Shown: piece after piece, positions 3,167 through 35,587 of the stretch
Layout: the number at the start of each line of letters is the position of its first letter
Position numbering within the stretch: position 1 is the stretch's first letter
Origin: Bacteroidia bacterium 43-41
GTDB lineage: Bacteria; Bacteroidota; Bacteroidia; Bacteroidales; Dysgonomonadaceae
Reading direction: 5' to 3'
Length of the DNA stretch: 64,000 nt
Assembly: GCA_001898165.1 (NCBI GenBank)
Contig: MKTD01000033.1
Span: 1 to 64,000, forward strand
The notes under the pieces: model-generated
The model's database searches: none
Seen by the model: only the letters and a program-made list of their open reading frames with translations
Told to the model about the DNA's origin: nothing
Translations under genes and position numbers: made by a program

Positions 3167-4495
3167 TTAATTGTTATTTGACGGCAACCTCGCAGGTTTT
3201 ATATCTGTATAACCATTCCCCCCTTTGATCCATCGTGCTGCCTGTCCCGAAAGCCACAGATAATAATCGGATTCCAGATCATCTTCTATTCCTACAAATT
3301 TACGGTTCCCGTTCAATGGCACCTCACTATTTCTCAAACACTTAAACAAAGCAGTTCCTTCATCAATCTCATCAAACATGGCAAGGTATAGCGACTGAGC
3401 CCCTGATAATTTAGCTCCGGCAACCTGTTTCCAGAAAAACTCTCCCTTCTCCCGGGGTATTGAGTTGTACTGAACGGAGTCGTTTTTTAAGTTTCCCCAG
3501 CTGAATCCGGGAAAAACAAGCGGAACATAATCAATATTATTCTCTTTACACCACCTGATATCCCCGGCAAGTACCGCACCGGCTTTCTCCCGATAACTGC
3601 CTGAATCATATCGACCTACAGCCCACGGCATTATAATATCGGCCTCTTTAATCAGGGTATGTAACAATGGATTATTTTCCGTGTCATTACTCAATGTACG
3701 CCAGTAATAGGGCACGCCAAGCATTAATGAGAACTTATCCCCGGATTGATTTAATGTCCCAACCAGTTGTTGAACATCGGAGAGCGAATATTTCCGACCA
3801 TCATTGAAACCAACTCCCCAAATAGCAAGCAATGGCCGTTTATGATGCCTTAGATAAGTAGGATTACTTCTACTATTAAACAAATCAAACTTTACCTGCA
3901 GCTCCGCCCAATCATCTGCTATAACTGCCAAATCAACTGAAGCACATCCACTTAAATCATACATGATACAGATAGCCCTTTCGTACTTGGCTGCCGCCTT
4001 CAAAGCGCTCTCCAACACTTTGTTGAAATGATTCTTTCCTCCCGGATCTTTTATTTCAACTACAAACCGTTGCATGAAAACCCCATCAATTCCATAATCT
4101 TTCATCCACTTAAAATGCAGGTCCACACTCTCTTCATCGTATGAACTATAGACATAGGCCGGAGTTCCGTCCGAATGCTTAAACTTTGTCTCATATATCC
4201 GGCTATAGTCACTCACATCGGGCCAAAAATCAACGGATGTGGTTTCGGGTTTAAACTGTCCACTCTTCTGATAGTGATGCCAGCCTCTGCCTGCTCCGTC
4301 TTCCTCTGCAGTGAACCAACCCTGATAGCCGGCCATCACCAATCCATTGTATGAAGTGTAGATACTCCCCGTATCGTCATAAGCGGTATTTTGCTTTGCC
4401 AGACTGTTTGTCTTATCTTCTTTTATCCTGAAAAATAAAATAAAGACCAATATGAGTACGAATAAAATAATAATCAGCTTAACTGTCTTTCCCAT
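3167..4495 (-). CDS. GH71/GH99-like glycoside hydrolase, membrane-anchored
   Basis: A 442-residue protein with an N-terminal hydrophobic helix (about residues 5-22) that would tether it to a membrane, followed by a TIM-barrel-like domain of the GH71/GH99 superfamily. The conserved opening block is MAGYQGW (near residue 54), and the block FDEIDEG (near 373) places two glutamates three residues apart, as in the WNEWxEG motif that carries the catalytic pair of GH99 endo-alpha-mannosidases. The opening block differs from that of true GH99 proteins, so I place it in the GH99/GH71-like group rather than GH99 itself. It lies 6 bp from the alkaline phosphatase gene and 119 bp from the GH92 gene, which supports a role in mannan breakdown. 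No lipobox is seen. Confidence 0.8.
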   Translation of the reverse strand: MGKTVKLIIILFVLILVFILFFRIKEDKTNSLAKQNTAYDDTGSIYTSYNGLVMAGYQGWFTAEEDGAGRGWHHYQKSGQFKPETTSVDFWPDVSDYSRIYETKFKHSDGTPAYVYSSYDEESVDLHFKWMKDYGIDGVFMQRFVVEIKDPGGKNHFNKVLESALKAAAKYERAICIMYDLSGCASVDLAVIADDWAELQVKFDLFNSRSNPTYLRHHKRPLLAIWGVGFNDGRKYSLSDVQQLVGTLNQSGDKFSLMLGVPYYWRTLSNDTENNPLLHTLIKEADIIMPWAVGRYDSGSYREKAGAVLAGDIRWCKENNIDYVPLVFPGFSWGNLKNDSVQYNSIPREKGEFFWKQVAGAKLSGAQSLYLAMFDEIDEGTALFKCLRNSEVPLNGNRKFVGIEDDLESDYYLWLSGQAARWIKGGNGYTDIKPARLPSNNN

Positions 4496-12901: not shown

Positions 12902-12971
12902 TGCGACTAAAGCAGAAACATTTAGATGTTTTTTGGAGTACCCATAGCTCGCGATGAACGATTTAGTCGCA
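12902..12971 (-). repeat. Inverted-repeat-ended element, family B, short copy
   Basis: A 70-bp element bounded by perfect 10-bp inverted repeats TGCGACTAAA (12902-12911) and TTTAGTCGCA (12962-12971). Its reverse complement aligns with 35322-35435, sharing the AGCTATGGGT core and CTGCTTTAGTCGCA end but lacking about 45 bp present there. It ends 6 bp from the stop codon of the next gene. Like family A it carries a GGAGTACCC/GGGTACCCC-type core next to an AAACATTTA motif, so the two families are probably related. Confidence 0.75.
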
Positions 12972-32543: not shown

Positions 32544-32550
32544 TAATTAA

Positions 32551-32577
32551 AAACCATCCTTCGGGATGGTTTTTTTT
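32551..32577 (+). terminator. Intrinsic terminator of the nqr operon
   Basis: A perfect 9-bp stem AAACCATCC / GGATGGTTT closed by a TTCG tetraloop and followed by a run of seven T. It lies 7 bp past the nqrF stop. Confidence 0.92.
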
Positions 32578-32581
32578 ATGC

Positions 32582-33829
32582 CTAATCATTGAGTGAAAAG
32601 CGCAATCCAAGCCTGATACTGAAGTTTAACGGCTTCTCCCTGTAAATGGTTTCCACCTCGCTTCCGTTCTTGAAATGGTAAGCCACGCCCGGCTCGGCGT
32701 AAAGCCCGATGGGTTTCGACAGCTGATACTGAACACCCACGGCGGAGTTTACAGACCATTGCAACGGCTTGACGGATATCCGATCCCGGCTGCGTTCTAC
32801 AATCTTGTTATCTATAACATAATCAGTCAATAATGTGCCTTTCATATTCTTCTCCACCACTCCACCCCCCGAAATATACATTGAGACTTTATCGCCCCGC
32901 CAAACGGTATAATTAAGGTTTACAGGAATGCCGAGGTAGTGCAGCGTCTGCTGGCTGTTGTAATAATGACTGTGGTCGCCGGAGCGTAATTGCGATGAGA
33001 GAAGAGTATAGTTGAGCCCGCTTGTAATGCTCCACTCTTCGTTGAAATTATATTTCAGCGAAGCGCCAAACGTTATCGGCTGAAAATGCTTAATATCGGT
33101 ATAAACGTGCTGGTAGGCGGCCCGCATAAGAATATCGCCGGGCAAATCGGGGCCTGCGGCACGAAAATGCTCGCCCACTTCCGATGGAAAATCATAAGGA
33201 GTGAAAATACGGTATCCGTCATAATGTTTTGCGGAACCCGACGGAATGTTCGACGCGTAAATGTCCGTTTGCCATTTCGCAGGCGCCTGGTTACGCCTGT
33301 GCGCGGGCAAATGAAATGCCGGCTCGTTGTTTATTCCGGAACTGGGGTCCTGGTCGGTATCGGGATGAGGATGACGGCTTCCGGGCTCTTCCGAAGGCCT
33401 GACCTCTTCGGGTTGCTGTTCGCTTTCTTCGCCTTGTCCGACTTGTTCGCTTTCTTCGTGCTCCGTTGCACCGCTCCTGCGCGGCAACACCTCCGGTTCC
33501 GGAGTTCTTTTTTCGGTTTTGTGAGCAAACAACAGTTCCTCAACTTTTGCAGGCTCTTCTTTTTTAGTGGAATGCACAATGGGAACGGGCCGGATGATTT
33601 TCTGATTTTCCTTCAATGTGAACAGCCCGATAAAAAACAAGACAAGCGCCACTGCCGCTATCGCTCCGGTACGCCTGCTCCACAACCGGATCCTCTGTCC
33701 CGCGTGCAGCGTATCCACAGCGCTTTCGGCTCTCATGATCCGCTCAACGTCATCCCACAATCCTTCGGGAGCAGGCTCCTCATGATCTTCCATCCGATTG
33801 CGCAGATTATCCTGCCATTGATCCTTCAT
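32582..33829 (-). CDS. Predicted dual membrane-spanning anti-sigma factor (Dma-like)
   Basis: A 415-residue protein of unusual build. Residues 1-50 are a short charged cytoplasmic domain with the GLWDDVERIM pattern often seen in anti-sigma factors; 54-72 are one membrane helix; about 73-190 are a low-complexity linker rich in E, P, S, Q and H; about 200-415 are a beta-barrel that ends in the aromatic RLGLRFSLND tail. No signal peptide precedes the helix. One chain could thus run from the cytoplasm through the inner membrane and periplasm to the outer membrane. Its start overlaps the ECF sigma gene by 4 bp, indicating translational coupling and a sigma/anti-sigma pair. This matches the Dma class reported in Bacteroides thetaiotaomicron; I infer membership from architecture and context, not from alignment. 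Confidence 0.75.
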   Translation of the reverse strand: MKDQWQDNLRNRMEDHEEPAPEGLWDDVERIMRAESAVDTLHAGQRIRLWSRRTGAIAAVALVLFFIGLFTLKENQKIIRPVPIVHSTKKEEPAKVEELLFAHKTEKRTPEPEVLPRRSGATEHEESEQVGQGEESEQQPEEVRPSEEPGSRHPHPDTDQDPSSGINNEPAFHLPAHRRNQAPAKWQTDIYASNIPSGSAKHYDGYRIFTPYDFPSEVGEHFRAAGPDLPGDILMRAAYQHVYTDIKHFQPITFGASLKYNFNEEWSITSGLNYTLLSSQLRSGDHSHYYNSQQTLHYLGIPVNLNYTVWRGDKVSMYISGGGVVEKNMKGTLLTDYVIDNKIVERSRDRISVKPLQWSVNSAVGVQYQLSKPIGLYAEPGVAYHFKNGSEVETIYREKPLNFSIRLGLRFSLND

Positions 33830-34395
33830 AGTGCCATTTTTTTTAATCGATACAAATCTATTTCCCGCATCAACAGCCCTTTGGCCCTGTGTAACTGCGA
33901 CGCCGAAGTGTTTTCCGCAATATCCAATATCGAAGCGATCTCTTTATGACTTTTTTCCTCGAAAACATACAGGTTGAACACGGTCCGGTAACCCAAAGGG
34001 AGTTTACGAATCATTTCCAGGATAACCGATGTAGGTACATCATTGAAATCGGGCGCCCGGTCGTCGGCCATGTCGGGCAAATCCCAGCTTGGCAGATTCG
34101 TGATATTCAGTTTATTGCTCTCCCTGATGTGTTTCAACGCTTCATTTACTACAATGCGGGACGACCACGCTTTTAACGATCCCGCTCCCTTATATTCGAA
34201 CCGGTCAACAGCCTTGAATATTTTAATGAAACTTTCCTGTAGAACATCCTTAACATCCTCCTGATTAGATATGTAACGAGAGCATACCGCGGTAAGATAC
34301 CCCGAATACATGTCGTAAAACTCCTTCATGGCAATGGTGTTACCGCGCACAATTTGCTGAAGAAGGGCCTGCTCTCTGTTTTCTTCTCTTATCAT
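33826..34395 (-). CDS. ECF RNA polymerase sigma factor
   Basis: A 189-residue sigma-70 family protein of the extracytoplasmic function type. Region 2 (about 25-90) has DVLQESFIKIFK and region 4 (about 125-180) has SHKEIASILDIAENTSASQLHRAK across its helix-turn-helix. The 4-bp overlap with the downstream predicted anti-sigma gene means the two are made together. The NigD-like lipoprotein gene lies 149 bp upstream in the same direction. The target regulon is not visible, but the promoter palindrome at 34454 may be part of its control. Confidence 0.95.
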   Translation of the reverse strand: MIREENREQALLQQIVRGNTIAMKEFYDMYSGYLTAVCSRYISNQEDVKDVLQESFIKIFKAVDRFEYKGAGSLKAWSSRIVVNEALKHIRESNKLNITNLPSWDLPDMADDRAPDFNDVPTSVILEMIRKLPLGYRTVFNLYVFEEKSHKEIASILDIAENTSASQLHRAKGLLMREIDLYRLKKMAL

Positions 34396-34453
34396 TTACG
34401 GATTTCGTTCTAACCAACACTAAAATACGCCCTTTTCTTTTACGAAAAAAGGT

Positions 34454-34476
34454 GTACCTTTATTGTGCAAAGGTAC
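34454..34476 (-). promoter_or_regulatory. Promoter with perfect palindrome ahead of the ECF sigma gene
   Basis: A perfect 8-bp inverted repeat GTACCTTT / AAAGGTAC with a 7-bp spacer. The right arm contains a -7 box on the minus strand (TACCTTTG, 34468-34475), so a protein bound to the palindrome would cover the promoter. The sigma gene starts about 60 bp downstream of the left arm. Confidence 0.55.
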
Positions 34477-34544
34477 AGCCTTTTATTGTTTTTTAAAAAA
34501 AGTCTTTATTTTGCGGTAACGGTAACAATTTTCCCGTCATGTGG

Positions 34545-35279
34545 TTATTGCAGCGGAAGCACACTTCGCTCACTGGCAATAGCTGACCCGGCAGGTGTTG
34601 CGGCACGCGTCTTATAGTCAAACTCCGCCGTTTTGTCGCCGCTAAACGATTTCCATTTCAGTTTCAATTTCACAGTCTCCCCTTTCGTGTCGGGCAGTTT
34701 GTCAAGCCTGAAGGCCACCAGTCCGTCGCCAACCCTCTCTGCCGTATCGCCGTTGGCATTGTGCCTGAATTCCACTTCGTACGGGTTGTCGGGGTTATTG
34801 GTCGGGATAAGATTCACATAATGGATAGTTTGCTGGTAGCCCCACCTCGTCCTGAAACGCAGCGTGAGATAGCCGTCCTCGGCAATGGTCACCCAATCGC
34901 TTACAATTTCAACGGGGTCGTCGCCATAAGCTTCCGTGTTTCCCGAGCCTAAGTTGGGAGCCATCGGTTTTGTGCGAATACTGTCAATCCAATTCACGTA
35001 CACAGCCTGGTCGTATTCTTTGCTCGGATCATCCACCTCTTTATAGTTCACCAAAGCCCTCACCTCTTTTTTATCAAAGAGCGAAGATTTTAAATTCACG
35101 GGAAGCAGTGTCGTTTTATCGTCCAACTGCAAAAAAACGGTTTCATCCCCGGCATGCTTTACGGTTACCAGAGCATTGGGATACAAAAGATCCCTATCCG
35201 TATTGTCATCCAGACAAGACGGAAAGAGCAGGAAGCCCATCAGCATTCCTGTTGTTAAAAGAAAACGAGTAATTTTCAT
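34545..35279 (-). CDS. NigD-like lipoprotein
   Basis: A lipoprotein of about 244 residues in the NigD family: lipobox FPSC with cysteine near residue 22, an N-terminal beta-domain and a C-terminal domain (VKLKLKWKSFSGDKTAEF). NigD proteins have no established biochemical role. The start at 35279 is preferred because a GGA lies 5 bp upstream; the ATG at 35288 would add three residues. It precedes the ECF sigma and Dma-like genes in the same direction. NigD1 has been linked to the Dma1/Das1 vesiculation pathway in B. thetaiotaomicron (from memory), which makes this order notable. A family B repeat ends 43 bp upstream of the start. Confidence 0.85.
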   Translation of the reverse strand: MKITRFLLTTGMLMGFLLFPSCLDDNTDRDLLYPNALVTVKHAGDETVFLQLDDKTTLLPVNLKSSLFDKKEVRALVNYKEVDDPSKEYDQAVYVNWIDSIRTKPMAPNLGSGNTEAYGDDPVEIVSDWVTIAEDGYLTLRFRTRWGYQQTIHYVNLIPTNNPDNPYEVEFRHNANGDTAERVGDGLVAFRLDKLPDTKGETVKLKLKWKSFSGDKTAEFDYKTRAATPAGSAIASERSVLPLQ

Positions 35280-35321
35280 AAATTCCATTGTTTTTAATTC
35301 AACTTTTGCAAGTTACCGGAT

Positions 35322-35435
35322 TGCGACTAAATCATCATCTGACGATATTTTACGACCCATTCTCGCTCACATTTACGTTCGTCGCAAGCTATGGGTCCCC
35401 CGCAAAATAGCTAAAATGTCTCTGCTTTAGTCGCA
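35322..35435 (+). repeat. Inverted-repeat-ended element, family B, long copy
   Basis: A 114-bp element with perfect 10-bp terminal inverted repeats TGCGACTAAA (35322-35331) and TTTAGTCGCA (35426-35435). It aligns with the reverse complement of 12902-12971, with an extra internal block of about 45 bp starting TCTGACGATATTTTAC, a block that also occurs at about 43212. It encodes nothing. It sits directly upstream of the NigD-like gene and may affect its promoter. Confidence 0.8.
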
Positions 35436-35587
35436 CGTACTATCCGAGGATCCCTTGCGAAAGTCCAGTTTTTAATAAATTCTCTAACTTATTAAATCCC
35501 CTTAGGACCGAAATCTTGCACGCTATTTTGTTATTTTTTGTTAAACTCACAGAAGCTGCGGGGCGCCCAACTTAACAATAAAGCTAT

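Follow-up and report, generated by a model that had tools for sequence, protein, structure and literature searches.

Within a 64,000-nt window of contig MKTD01000033.1 (to which all positions below refer) from Bacteroidia bacterium 43-41, a member of the Dysgonomonadaceae with a 3.6-Mb genome in 80 contigs (G000), three genes on the minus strand, nigD, das and dma, follow each other in one direction. They encode a NigD-family lipoprotein, an extracytoplasmic function (ECF) sigma factor and a presumed anti-sigma factor ending in a barrel. We consider it probable that this triad is a Dma-family envelope-stress circuit, with Dma restraining Das and Das driving nigD. Gene order, architecture, clade, a promoter-like element and a hairpin were read from the sequence or from a model. 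Three co-directional genes had been proposed at 32582-35279 by a sequence-only reading of this DNA, and open reading frames (ORFs) with matching Pfam and NCBIfam domains are indeed found there:

34545-35279, minus strand: nigD, NigD-family lipoprotein, 244 aa (247 aa from 35288), by Pfam, NCBIfam NF051862 and 3k0y
33826-34395, minus strand: das, ECF sigma factor, 189 aa, by Pfam, TIGR02937 and identity to Das1
32582-33829, minus strand: dma, anti-sigma gene, 415 residues, start overlapping the das stop, by ORF, Pfam and AlphaFold2

The mechanical ORF of nigD spans 34545-35288, and a second in-frame ATG lies 9 bases further in, at 35279, the codon matching the one at which several relatives begin NigD (MKI...). 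The 4-bp overlap between das and dma that had been described is present as ATGA. Since the three proteins occur in identical order in the same-genus genome G002, at 60-85% identity to the window triad, and a window-type Dma was found in 5 genomes of the genus out of 10, counting this one (the rest are mostly less complete), the triad is real and not a product of chance. Chance ORFs or a mis-called barrel were ruled out by the Pfam domains, the AlphaFold2 model and the VIA-align barrel matches. A search of Rfam at the locus gave two matches only, both below gathering.

Das contains sigma-70 regions 2 and 4 only (Pfam Sigma70_r2, 51 bits, and Sigma70_r4_2, 56 bits, both above gathering), and scores above the cut-off of the NCBIfam model sigma70-ECF TIGR02937. 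Identity between Das and the Das1 of four named Bacteroides/Phocaeicola loci is 41-47%; the window Dma is 27-31% identical, over nearly its full length, to Dma of four such loci. In NigD both domains of the family are present, the NigD_N OB domain (79 bits) and the NigD_C beta-sandwich (139 bits), each above the Pfam gathering. NigD also matches NF051862, the NigD1/NigD2 family lipoprotein (240 bits vs a cut-off of 60), and has a solved relative, 3k0y (E=8.5e-32). Its N-terminus, read by eye, contains the following:

35214-35279, minus strand: putative NigD signal peptide with lipobox-like FPSC and a predicted lipidated Cys at 35214-35216

For Dma, the sequence-only reading had claimed a cytoplasmic part, one membrane helix, a disordered linker and a barrel. 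Hydrophobicity, AlphaFold2, Foldseek and VIA-align bear out this Dma-like architecture:

33692-33829, minus strand: presumed cytoplasmic anti-sigma domain, residues 1-46, two helices (AlphaFold2, conservation)
33608-33676, minus strand: inner-membrane helix, residues ~52-74 (hydrophobicity and model)
33287-33595, minus strand: disordered periplasmic tether, residues ~79-181 (model confidence and composition)
32591-33286, minus strand: OmpA/OmpW-like outer-membrane barrel, residues ~182-413 (AlphaFold2, Foldseek, VIA-align)

The AlphaFold2 input was an alignment of the window Dma with 43 relatives, and the model reached a mean predicted local distance difference test score (pLDDT) of 73 and a predicted template modelling score (pTM) of 0.57. 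Its N-terminal domain is made of helices 2-14 and 24-37, with W5, P21 and W25 conserved in the alignment of relatives; the NCBIfam anti-sigma match to Dma is weak (E=8e-4, under the cut-off). A long helix (47-78) contains the sole hydrophobic stretch, and Kyte-Doolittle windows of 19 residues scoring >1.6 begin at residues 52-57 only. In the tether, pLDDT is mostly <50 (residues 79-177), and residues 76-240 are rich in P, E, Q, S, K and R; a linker of ~115 residues had been claimed, close to the ~100 delimited by pLDDT. The barrel has its first strand at 186-194 (block 181-190, pLDDT 90); confidence is weak over 201-240 (50-68) and returns in blocks of 88-98 across residues 241-410. Thus, the structure prediction that had been suggested for this protein yields a helix plus a barrel, the latter confident over 241-410.

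The identity of the barrel was examined by several comparisons. Pfam places OMP_b-brl on the C-terminus (33 bits, above gathering). VIA-align, run on residues 179-415, gave Z scores of 17.7 to 6x9z, 15.7 to OmpA (1qjp) and 15.2 to OmpW (2f1t), the best natural barrels (OmpA, OprF, OmpW) standing at Z 15-17 over residues ~182-414. DSSP cuts the strands into eleven elements, and the barrel is taken as 8-stranded solely from its best matches (OmpA, OprF, OmpW, NspA), which have eight strands. Foldseek matched Dma to OmpA, OmpW and OmpX, with low whole-chain TM-scores (0.35 at best), because half of the chain lies outside the barrel. No sequence relative of Dma was found in the PDB at E up to 1. 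The chain is predicted to span both membranes, in a model that does not fix the position of the barrel relative to the membrane helix.

Related systems have been described in B. thetaiotaomicron (B. theta) and P. vulgatus. According to the accessible text of PMC13088901, B. theta has a Dma1/Das1/NigD1 set; Dma proteins have this domain order and restrain ECF21 partners, Dma1 and Dma2 restrain Das1 and Das2 as well as vesiculation, and loss of Dma1 raises vesiculation via NigD1. The same text identifies NigD1 as BT_4005, and no placement beside dma1 is given in it. In P. vulgatus, as described in the accessible parts of PMC9308784 and PMC13114119, Reo/EcfO answers antibacterial toxins, is needed for NigD production and is thought to sense envelope stress. 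There M0N98_03760 encodes the anti-sigma factor, 03761 the sigma factor and 03762 a NigD of the regulon; three nigD genes are under EcfO control, and induction extends to the sigma gene itself. Judging by the locus tags, 03760-03762 would be neighbours in the same order as in the window.

As far as these sources describe them, Dma1/Das1/NigD1 of B. theta resembles the window triad in the domain order of the anti-sigma factor, the adjacent ECF sigma gene and the link to NigD, and EcfO/Reo (P. vulgatus, B. fragilis) resembles it in a sigma gene with a barrel-bearing anti-sigma gene after it, a nigD with a consecutive tag, envelope stress and NigD output. Dma1/Das1 of other Bacteroides species are kin in sequence to the window pair. 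We take BT_4719/4720/4721 to be the nigD-das1-dma1 locus of B. theta. Dma2/Das2 (BT_1558/BT_1559) is alike in architecture and in its ECF sigma partner; its neighbours, in what is available on it, are DUF4943, DUF4858 and a gene annotated as enoyl-ACP reductase/nitronate monooxygenase, not NigD. By analogy, the window triad most likely works like the B. theta and P. vulgatus systems.

The link from Das to nigD is suggested by a promoter-like element:

35493-35520, minus strand: Das-type promoter-like element TGCAAGATTT-N14-TTTA, upstream of nigD (sole exact genome match; conserved in relatives)

The form common to the nigD upstreams of co-directional loci is TGCAAGRTTT-N13-14-TTTA. With the spacing fixed, TGCAAGRTTT-N14-TTTA has one exact match in the 3.6-Mb genome, at the triad nigD; it is also the sole match in the window, with 0 in 100 shuffles. 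When up to two mismatches were allowed in the first box and up to one in the second, 17 of the 18 loci having 141 bp or more of DNA upstream of nigD carried the element there (exact in 10, one mismatch in 6, two in 1). Upstream of das it was found in only 2/20, with 2 and 3 mismatches in all. In sequences resampled by a first-order chain, 200 times per row, the mean rate was ~0.15 for nigD (0.03-0.29) and ~0.07 for das (0-0.22). The 18 loci were taken from 21 nigD rows by leaving out L061, L026 and L064 (66, 31 and 0 bp upstream, no match); among them, L049 has nigD and dma with no detected das, and G002 and G009 are near-identical. In eight genomes searched for the exact fixed-spacing form, it occurred once, at the triad nigD, in six (G000, G002, G008, G009, G064, G076) and twice in G066 (one at nigD), with none in G019, whose nigD has a one-mismatch form. 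No ECF21 promoter sequence was found in the literature searched, which includes the accessible part of PMC8999054 and lacks most subscription papers.

The genome contains a second Das/Dma pair (C14:119.9-121.9 kb, in the locus C14:117000-125000, L043). It is like the window pair in length, in its barrel match and in having its own ECF sigma factor, but differs in sequence (Dma 25% identical over nearly the whole length, Das 41%), in its promoter code and in having more sites. It adjoins a gene that, by eye, is an sppA-like protease gene, and is followed by a 237-aa lipoprotein-like gene. Its element, TGCARCGTTT-N-CATCT, has 8 sites in G000, 8 in G002 and 3 in G004, and 0 in the reversed control; each of the 19 sites precedes an ORF start by 22-201 bases, and none falls well within a longer ORF. 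Sites common to G000 and G002, compared by eye, are those at the second-pair das, at a nigD on contig C75 and at three more genes, two of them lipoprotein-like. The eight own-genome sites (L226, L229, L232, L234, L236, L238, L240 and L242), which adjoin several lipoprotein-like genes and one nigD, form the predicted regulon of the second Das. A third NigD gene of the genome (C76:23417-23989, L045), whose longest ORF call overlaps the preceding gene, has no recognised Das-type element upstream.

Next, the window proteins were placed among their relatives. Of 61 Dysgonomonadaceae genomes drawn, 58 yielded at least one Dma match with E no higher than 0.001; 18 of these 58 have a window-type Dma (best E 7e-59 or better), and 40 have only a weaker match of the second-pair kind (best E 2e-34 to 7e-14). 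From the order, 40/197 genomes drawn had a Dma match at E up to 1e-10. A scan of named genomes covered the best 80 of 280 confirmed loci, mostly Bacteroides, with B. thetaiotaomicron not among them. Within these 80, matches over nearly the whole length were found to named Das1/Dma1 loci of Bacteroides, Phocaeicola and Barnesiella. Where a nigD was found, its orientation to das-dma is divergent in Bacteroides, Mediterranea, Phocaeicola, Barnesiella and Coprobacter; Proteiniphilum, two Muribaculaceae and Cryptobacteroides share the window arrangement, with nigD upstream in the same direction.

A tree of Das and Dma was computed by a quick IQ-TREE run with Shimodaira-Hasegawa-like approximate likelihood ratio test (SH-aLRT) support. 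It holds 102 rows, the window and 101 of 102 listed loci (L097, with a Dma ORF of 269 residues, was left out); 93 rows differ, some genomes are in twice, and 31 of the 80 named loci are among the listed loci. A 64-row group (support 100) comprises Dma2-like rows, Bacteroidaceae/Barnesiellaceae Dma1 and the window clade, and a 38-row group (100) holds the own-genome second pair. The window clade consists of 28 rows (100), 22 with co-directional nigD and 6 with no detected nigD; it joins 30 divergent-nigD Dma1 rows (Phocaeicola, 5 rows, 99; Bacteroides with Barnesiellaceae, 25 rows, 86) at a node of 87, not resolved further. By this tree, the window Dma is on the Dma1/Dma2 side of the family. 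That it is of the same type as the second Dma of the genome was ruled out by the tree and by identity. L098 and L100, rows resembling Dma2, branch off on their own. By eye, downstream of Das/Dma in L100 (B. ihuae) and L098 (G117) come two small genes and a nitronate-monooxygenase-like gene, an arrangement that looks like the Dma2 operon outside B. theta.

In a tree of NigD (46 rows, 40 different; L205, L206 and L215 left out, with no scored NigD), the window NigD belongs to a 15-row clade (100), and the das-divergent NigD of five Bacteroides species stand apart (8 rows with duplicates, 98), with several inner forks open. Owing to this split, the linked NigD differs between the two groups. In genome G068 (L048 and L049) the triad looks split: at one place das-dma has no nigD in 10 kb, and at the other nigD and dma are present with no das detected between them.

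Promoter codes were counted clade by clade after upstreams of <150 bases and duplicates had been dropped (window-clade nigD, n=9); 6/102 tree rows belonged to no group. All elements share the frame TGCA-NNN-TTT, with clade-specific middle bases. In the window clade, 0/24 das upstreams had any code, while 8/9 nigD upstreams had AGR. The divergent-nigD rows had RTR at 23/28 das and 12/27 nigD upstreams, and on the second-pair side das had RCG in 8/31 and RTR in 1/31. In resampled sequences, the RTR and RCG elements upstream of das had rates of <1%. Wherever an element occurs, its form thus goes with the clade of the sigma factor, and this is the chief reason for thinking that Das reads it. The different elements of the two pairs suggest two insulated circuits. 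In the full scheme, to which we give an even chance, one cell would have two insulated dual-membrane circuits, TGCAAGRTTT/ATTTA leading to its own NigD alone, and TGCARCGTTT/CATCT to itself, a different NigD and several lipoprotein-like genes; in the Bacteroides type, das1 and the divergent nigD would both carry TGCARTRTTT/ATTTA, a third code, and promoter code, NigD partner and gene orientation would have changed together along the family tree.

Several observations weigh against the interpretation of the triad as a circuit in which Das drives nigD. The element was read off nigD promoters, and its match there is therefore not independent. With up to one mismatch, counts were above the reversed-pattern control in 8/8 genomes, by only 1-3 in seven (6 vs 4 in G000) and with 17 vs 4 in G066; because the excess is small, no wider regulon is claimed or excluded. 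G004 lacks the element at nigD and has 7 exact matches elsewhere (variable-gap pattern), one inside an ORF. In L055, the near match is in an odd place, 179 bp upstream of nigD. Two triad-type NigD genes have no das in the fetched stretch of their locus, and one of them has no element and the other a near match, TGCAGGATTC. On the second-pair side, the majority of upstreams carry no element of any of the three forms. The node joining the window clade to Dma1 has an SH-aLRT of only 87, in a quick tree with long branches, and the linked NigD of the window lies outside the clade of NigD beside Bacteroides das1. A 169-bp insertion in the nigD leader, described below, may alter nigD expression in this strain. 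The case for this organism is computational throughout, the contact between Das and Dma being a presumed one.

The two NigD genes without das are those of L189 (Phocaeicola coprocola C33) and L004 (G023). The other six G004 matches (L219-L224) are identical, and L219, the one inspected, is upstream of a transposase gene that we take to be IS30-like; the six are probably a coincidence carried by an insertion sequence.

The window Dma could instead be a separate lineage-specific paralog, not equivalent to Dma1 or EcfO-Reo, with the second pair doing the Dma1 job in the family. We regard this as possible, yet doubtful. It would suit the support of only 87 at the node linking the window clade, the 40/58 matching family genomes whose best Dma match is only of the second-pair kind, and the second-pair element, which has more predicted sites (8), among them one at the sigma gene of that pair and one at a nigD; the published EcfO, as far as its accessible description goes, likewise controls three nigD genes. 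However, the second pair lies outside the 64-row group (100) that holds the window-type, Dma1 and Dma2-like rows, and in the family loci viewed nigD is found alongside the window-type pair only.

In the circuit that we favour, the N-terminal helical domain of Dma would hold Das in the cytoplasm, with the Dma helix running through the inner membrane, a floppy tether bridging the periplasm and the outer membrane housing an OmpA-like barrel. If conditions at the outer membrane changed (barrel folding, the state of lipid or lipopolysaccharide (LPS), or a pull on the tether), the N-terminal domain would be altered and Das freed; LPS- or BamA-type signals are candidate cues for Dma. Freed Das would begin transcription at TGCAAGRTTT-N14-TTTA upstream of nigD, and the NigD lipoprotein would be produced and probably reach the cell surface and vesicles. 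We infer sequestration of the sigma factor, and its release on envelope stress, from B. theta and P. vulgatus. Such a circuit would need no protease cascade and would have nigD as its sole direct target.

Many membrane anti-sigma factors work by regulated proteolysis, and the periplasmic linker and membrane helix of Dma could be cut. In that case the barrel would only anchor or sense, and a site-1/site-2 protease cascade would release Das. We think this unlikely. The barrel and the presumed anti-sigma domain are in one chain, so that no separate sensor is needed, and the hypothesis given for Dma2 in the accessible text of PMC13088901 is that it senses surface glycan and then releases Das2.

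An improbable alternative is that nigD is constitutive or under another regulator, whose operator the element would be, and that Das has other targets. The genome-wide case consists of one exact match per genome, and the link between element and Das is sequence-based, which leaves room for such a regulator; however, like elements upstream of das in the other two clades (RTR 23/28, RCG 8/31) argue for a tie to the sigma factor.

The favoured circuit also has das and dma expressed at a basal level, and a candidate site is found between nigD and das:

34453-34477, minus strand: T-tailed, terminator-like hairpin between nigD and das (terminator scan; fold z -3.3)

The left arm of this hairpin contains TAnnTTTG, which we take to be the house-keeping -7 promoter motif of Bacteroidota and which is present in 16/22 of the upstreams compared. 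Like hairpins were found in 13/14 distinct rows carrying TGTAYMTTT(T)G, for which these rows had been chosen (L022 repeats L052), with changes on both arms (L047, L053 vs L052; L054). A hairpin was not seen in the same-genus L018 and L056/L030, nor in the non-family L104, L176, L183 and L185. The hairpin may be the nigD terminator doubling as a basal das promoter, which would keep das-dma basal; their expression may rise by read-through from nigD. A scan for sigma-70-type promoters was uninformative (6 found vs 4.5 in shuffles).

Further features of the locus are a dispersed repeat like a miniature inverted-repeat transposable element (MITE), its flanks, and a hairpin at the far end of the triad:

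35299-35467, minus strand: 169-bp dispersed MITE-like repeat in the nigD leader, with imperfect terminal inverted repeats (genome copies, alignment)
35468-35476, minus strand: 9-bp target duplication ATTAAAAAC, promoter side (sequence comparison)
35290-35298, minus strand: 9-bp target duplication ATTAAAAAC, nigD side (sequence comparison)
32549-32574, minus strand: terminator-like hairpin 3' of dma (hairpin scan), in the gap to a convergent gene that, by eye, we take to be nqrF-like

The repeat has 57 matched pieces in its own genome, 2 each in G002 and G009, and none in G004 and G008. In an alignment of 20 fetched copies the inverted ends are common to the copies, and a simple test found an exact flanking duplication of 7-12 bases in 4/20. 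A partial copy lies in the window at 12902-12960 on the plus strand. The repeat separates the element from nigD, the site being 232 bp from the ORF start (223 from 35279); in relatives with an ORF call downstream of the site, the element is 47-114 bp from the ORF start in 11/12. We think it improbable that the circuit is impaired in this strain, with the repeat between promoter and start codon stopping or lowering nigD expression. In favour are the 169-bp insertion, flanked by its 9-bp duplications, and a leader RNA that folds strongly (z -2.9); against it, no terminator-like or sigma-70-type promoter-like site was found in the leader, and all three ORFs are open and conserved.

The published class of Dma/Das and EcfO/Reo systems covers the window triad. 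What is new, and computational in all its parts, lies in its NigD partner, in its promoter code and in what appears to be a layout of two circuits. The sequence-only reading had matched the triad to the Dma/Das/NigD set, and in architecture and in kinship to Bacteroides Das1/Dma1 (by the identities and the tree given above) the match stands. It is not supported for NigD and for the wiring: NigD1 is BT_4005, and in the fetched Bacteroides loci, B. theta not included, the das-linked nigD, where found, is divergent and in the five species of the NigD tree belongs to another NigD clade; the Dma1/Das1 loci have another promoter-like element, while das in the window has none. The contrast with EcfO/Reo, within what its sources make accessible, is that of three nigD genes and an induced sigma gene vs a single exact site, which lies at one nigD, with das lacking any; another nigD of the window genome is apparently under the second Das. 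Control of vesiculation by the window triad we infer by analogy only.

How the state of the outer membrane is reported to transcription, and what role NigD lipoproteins play, are open questions in Bacteroidota. With NigD as its apparently single target, a Dma circuit in a family other than that of Bacteroides would offer a clean place to study both the role of NigD and sensing by the barrel. If true, clade-specific promoter codes would allow Dma regulons to be predicted from sequence in many genomes.

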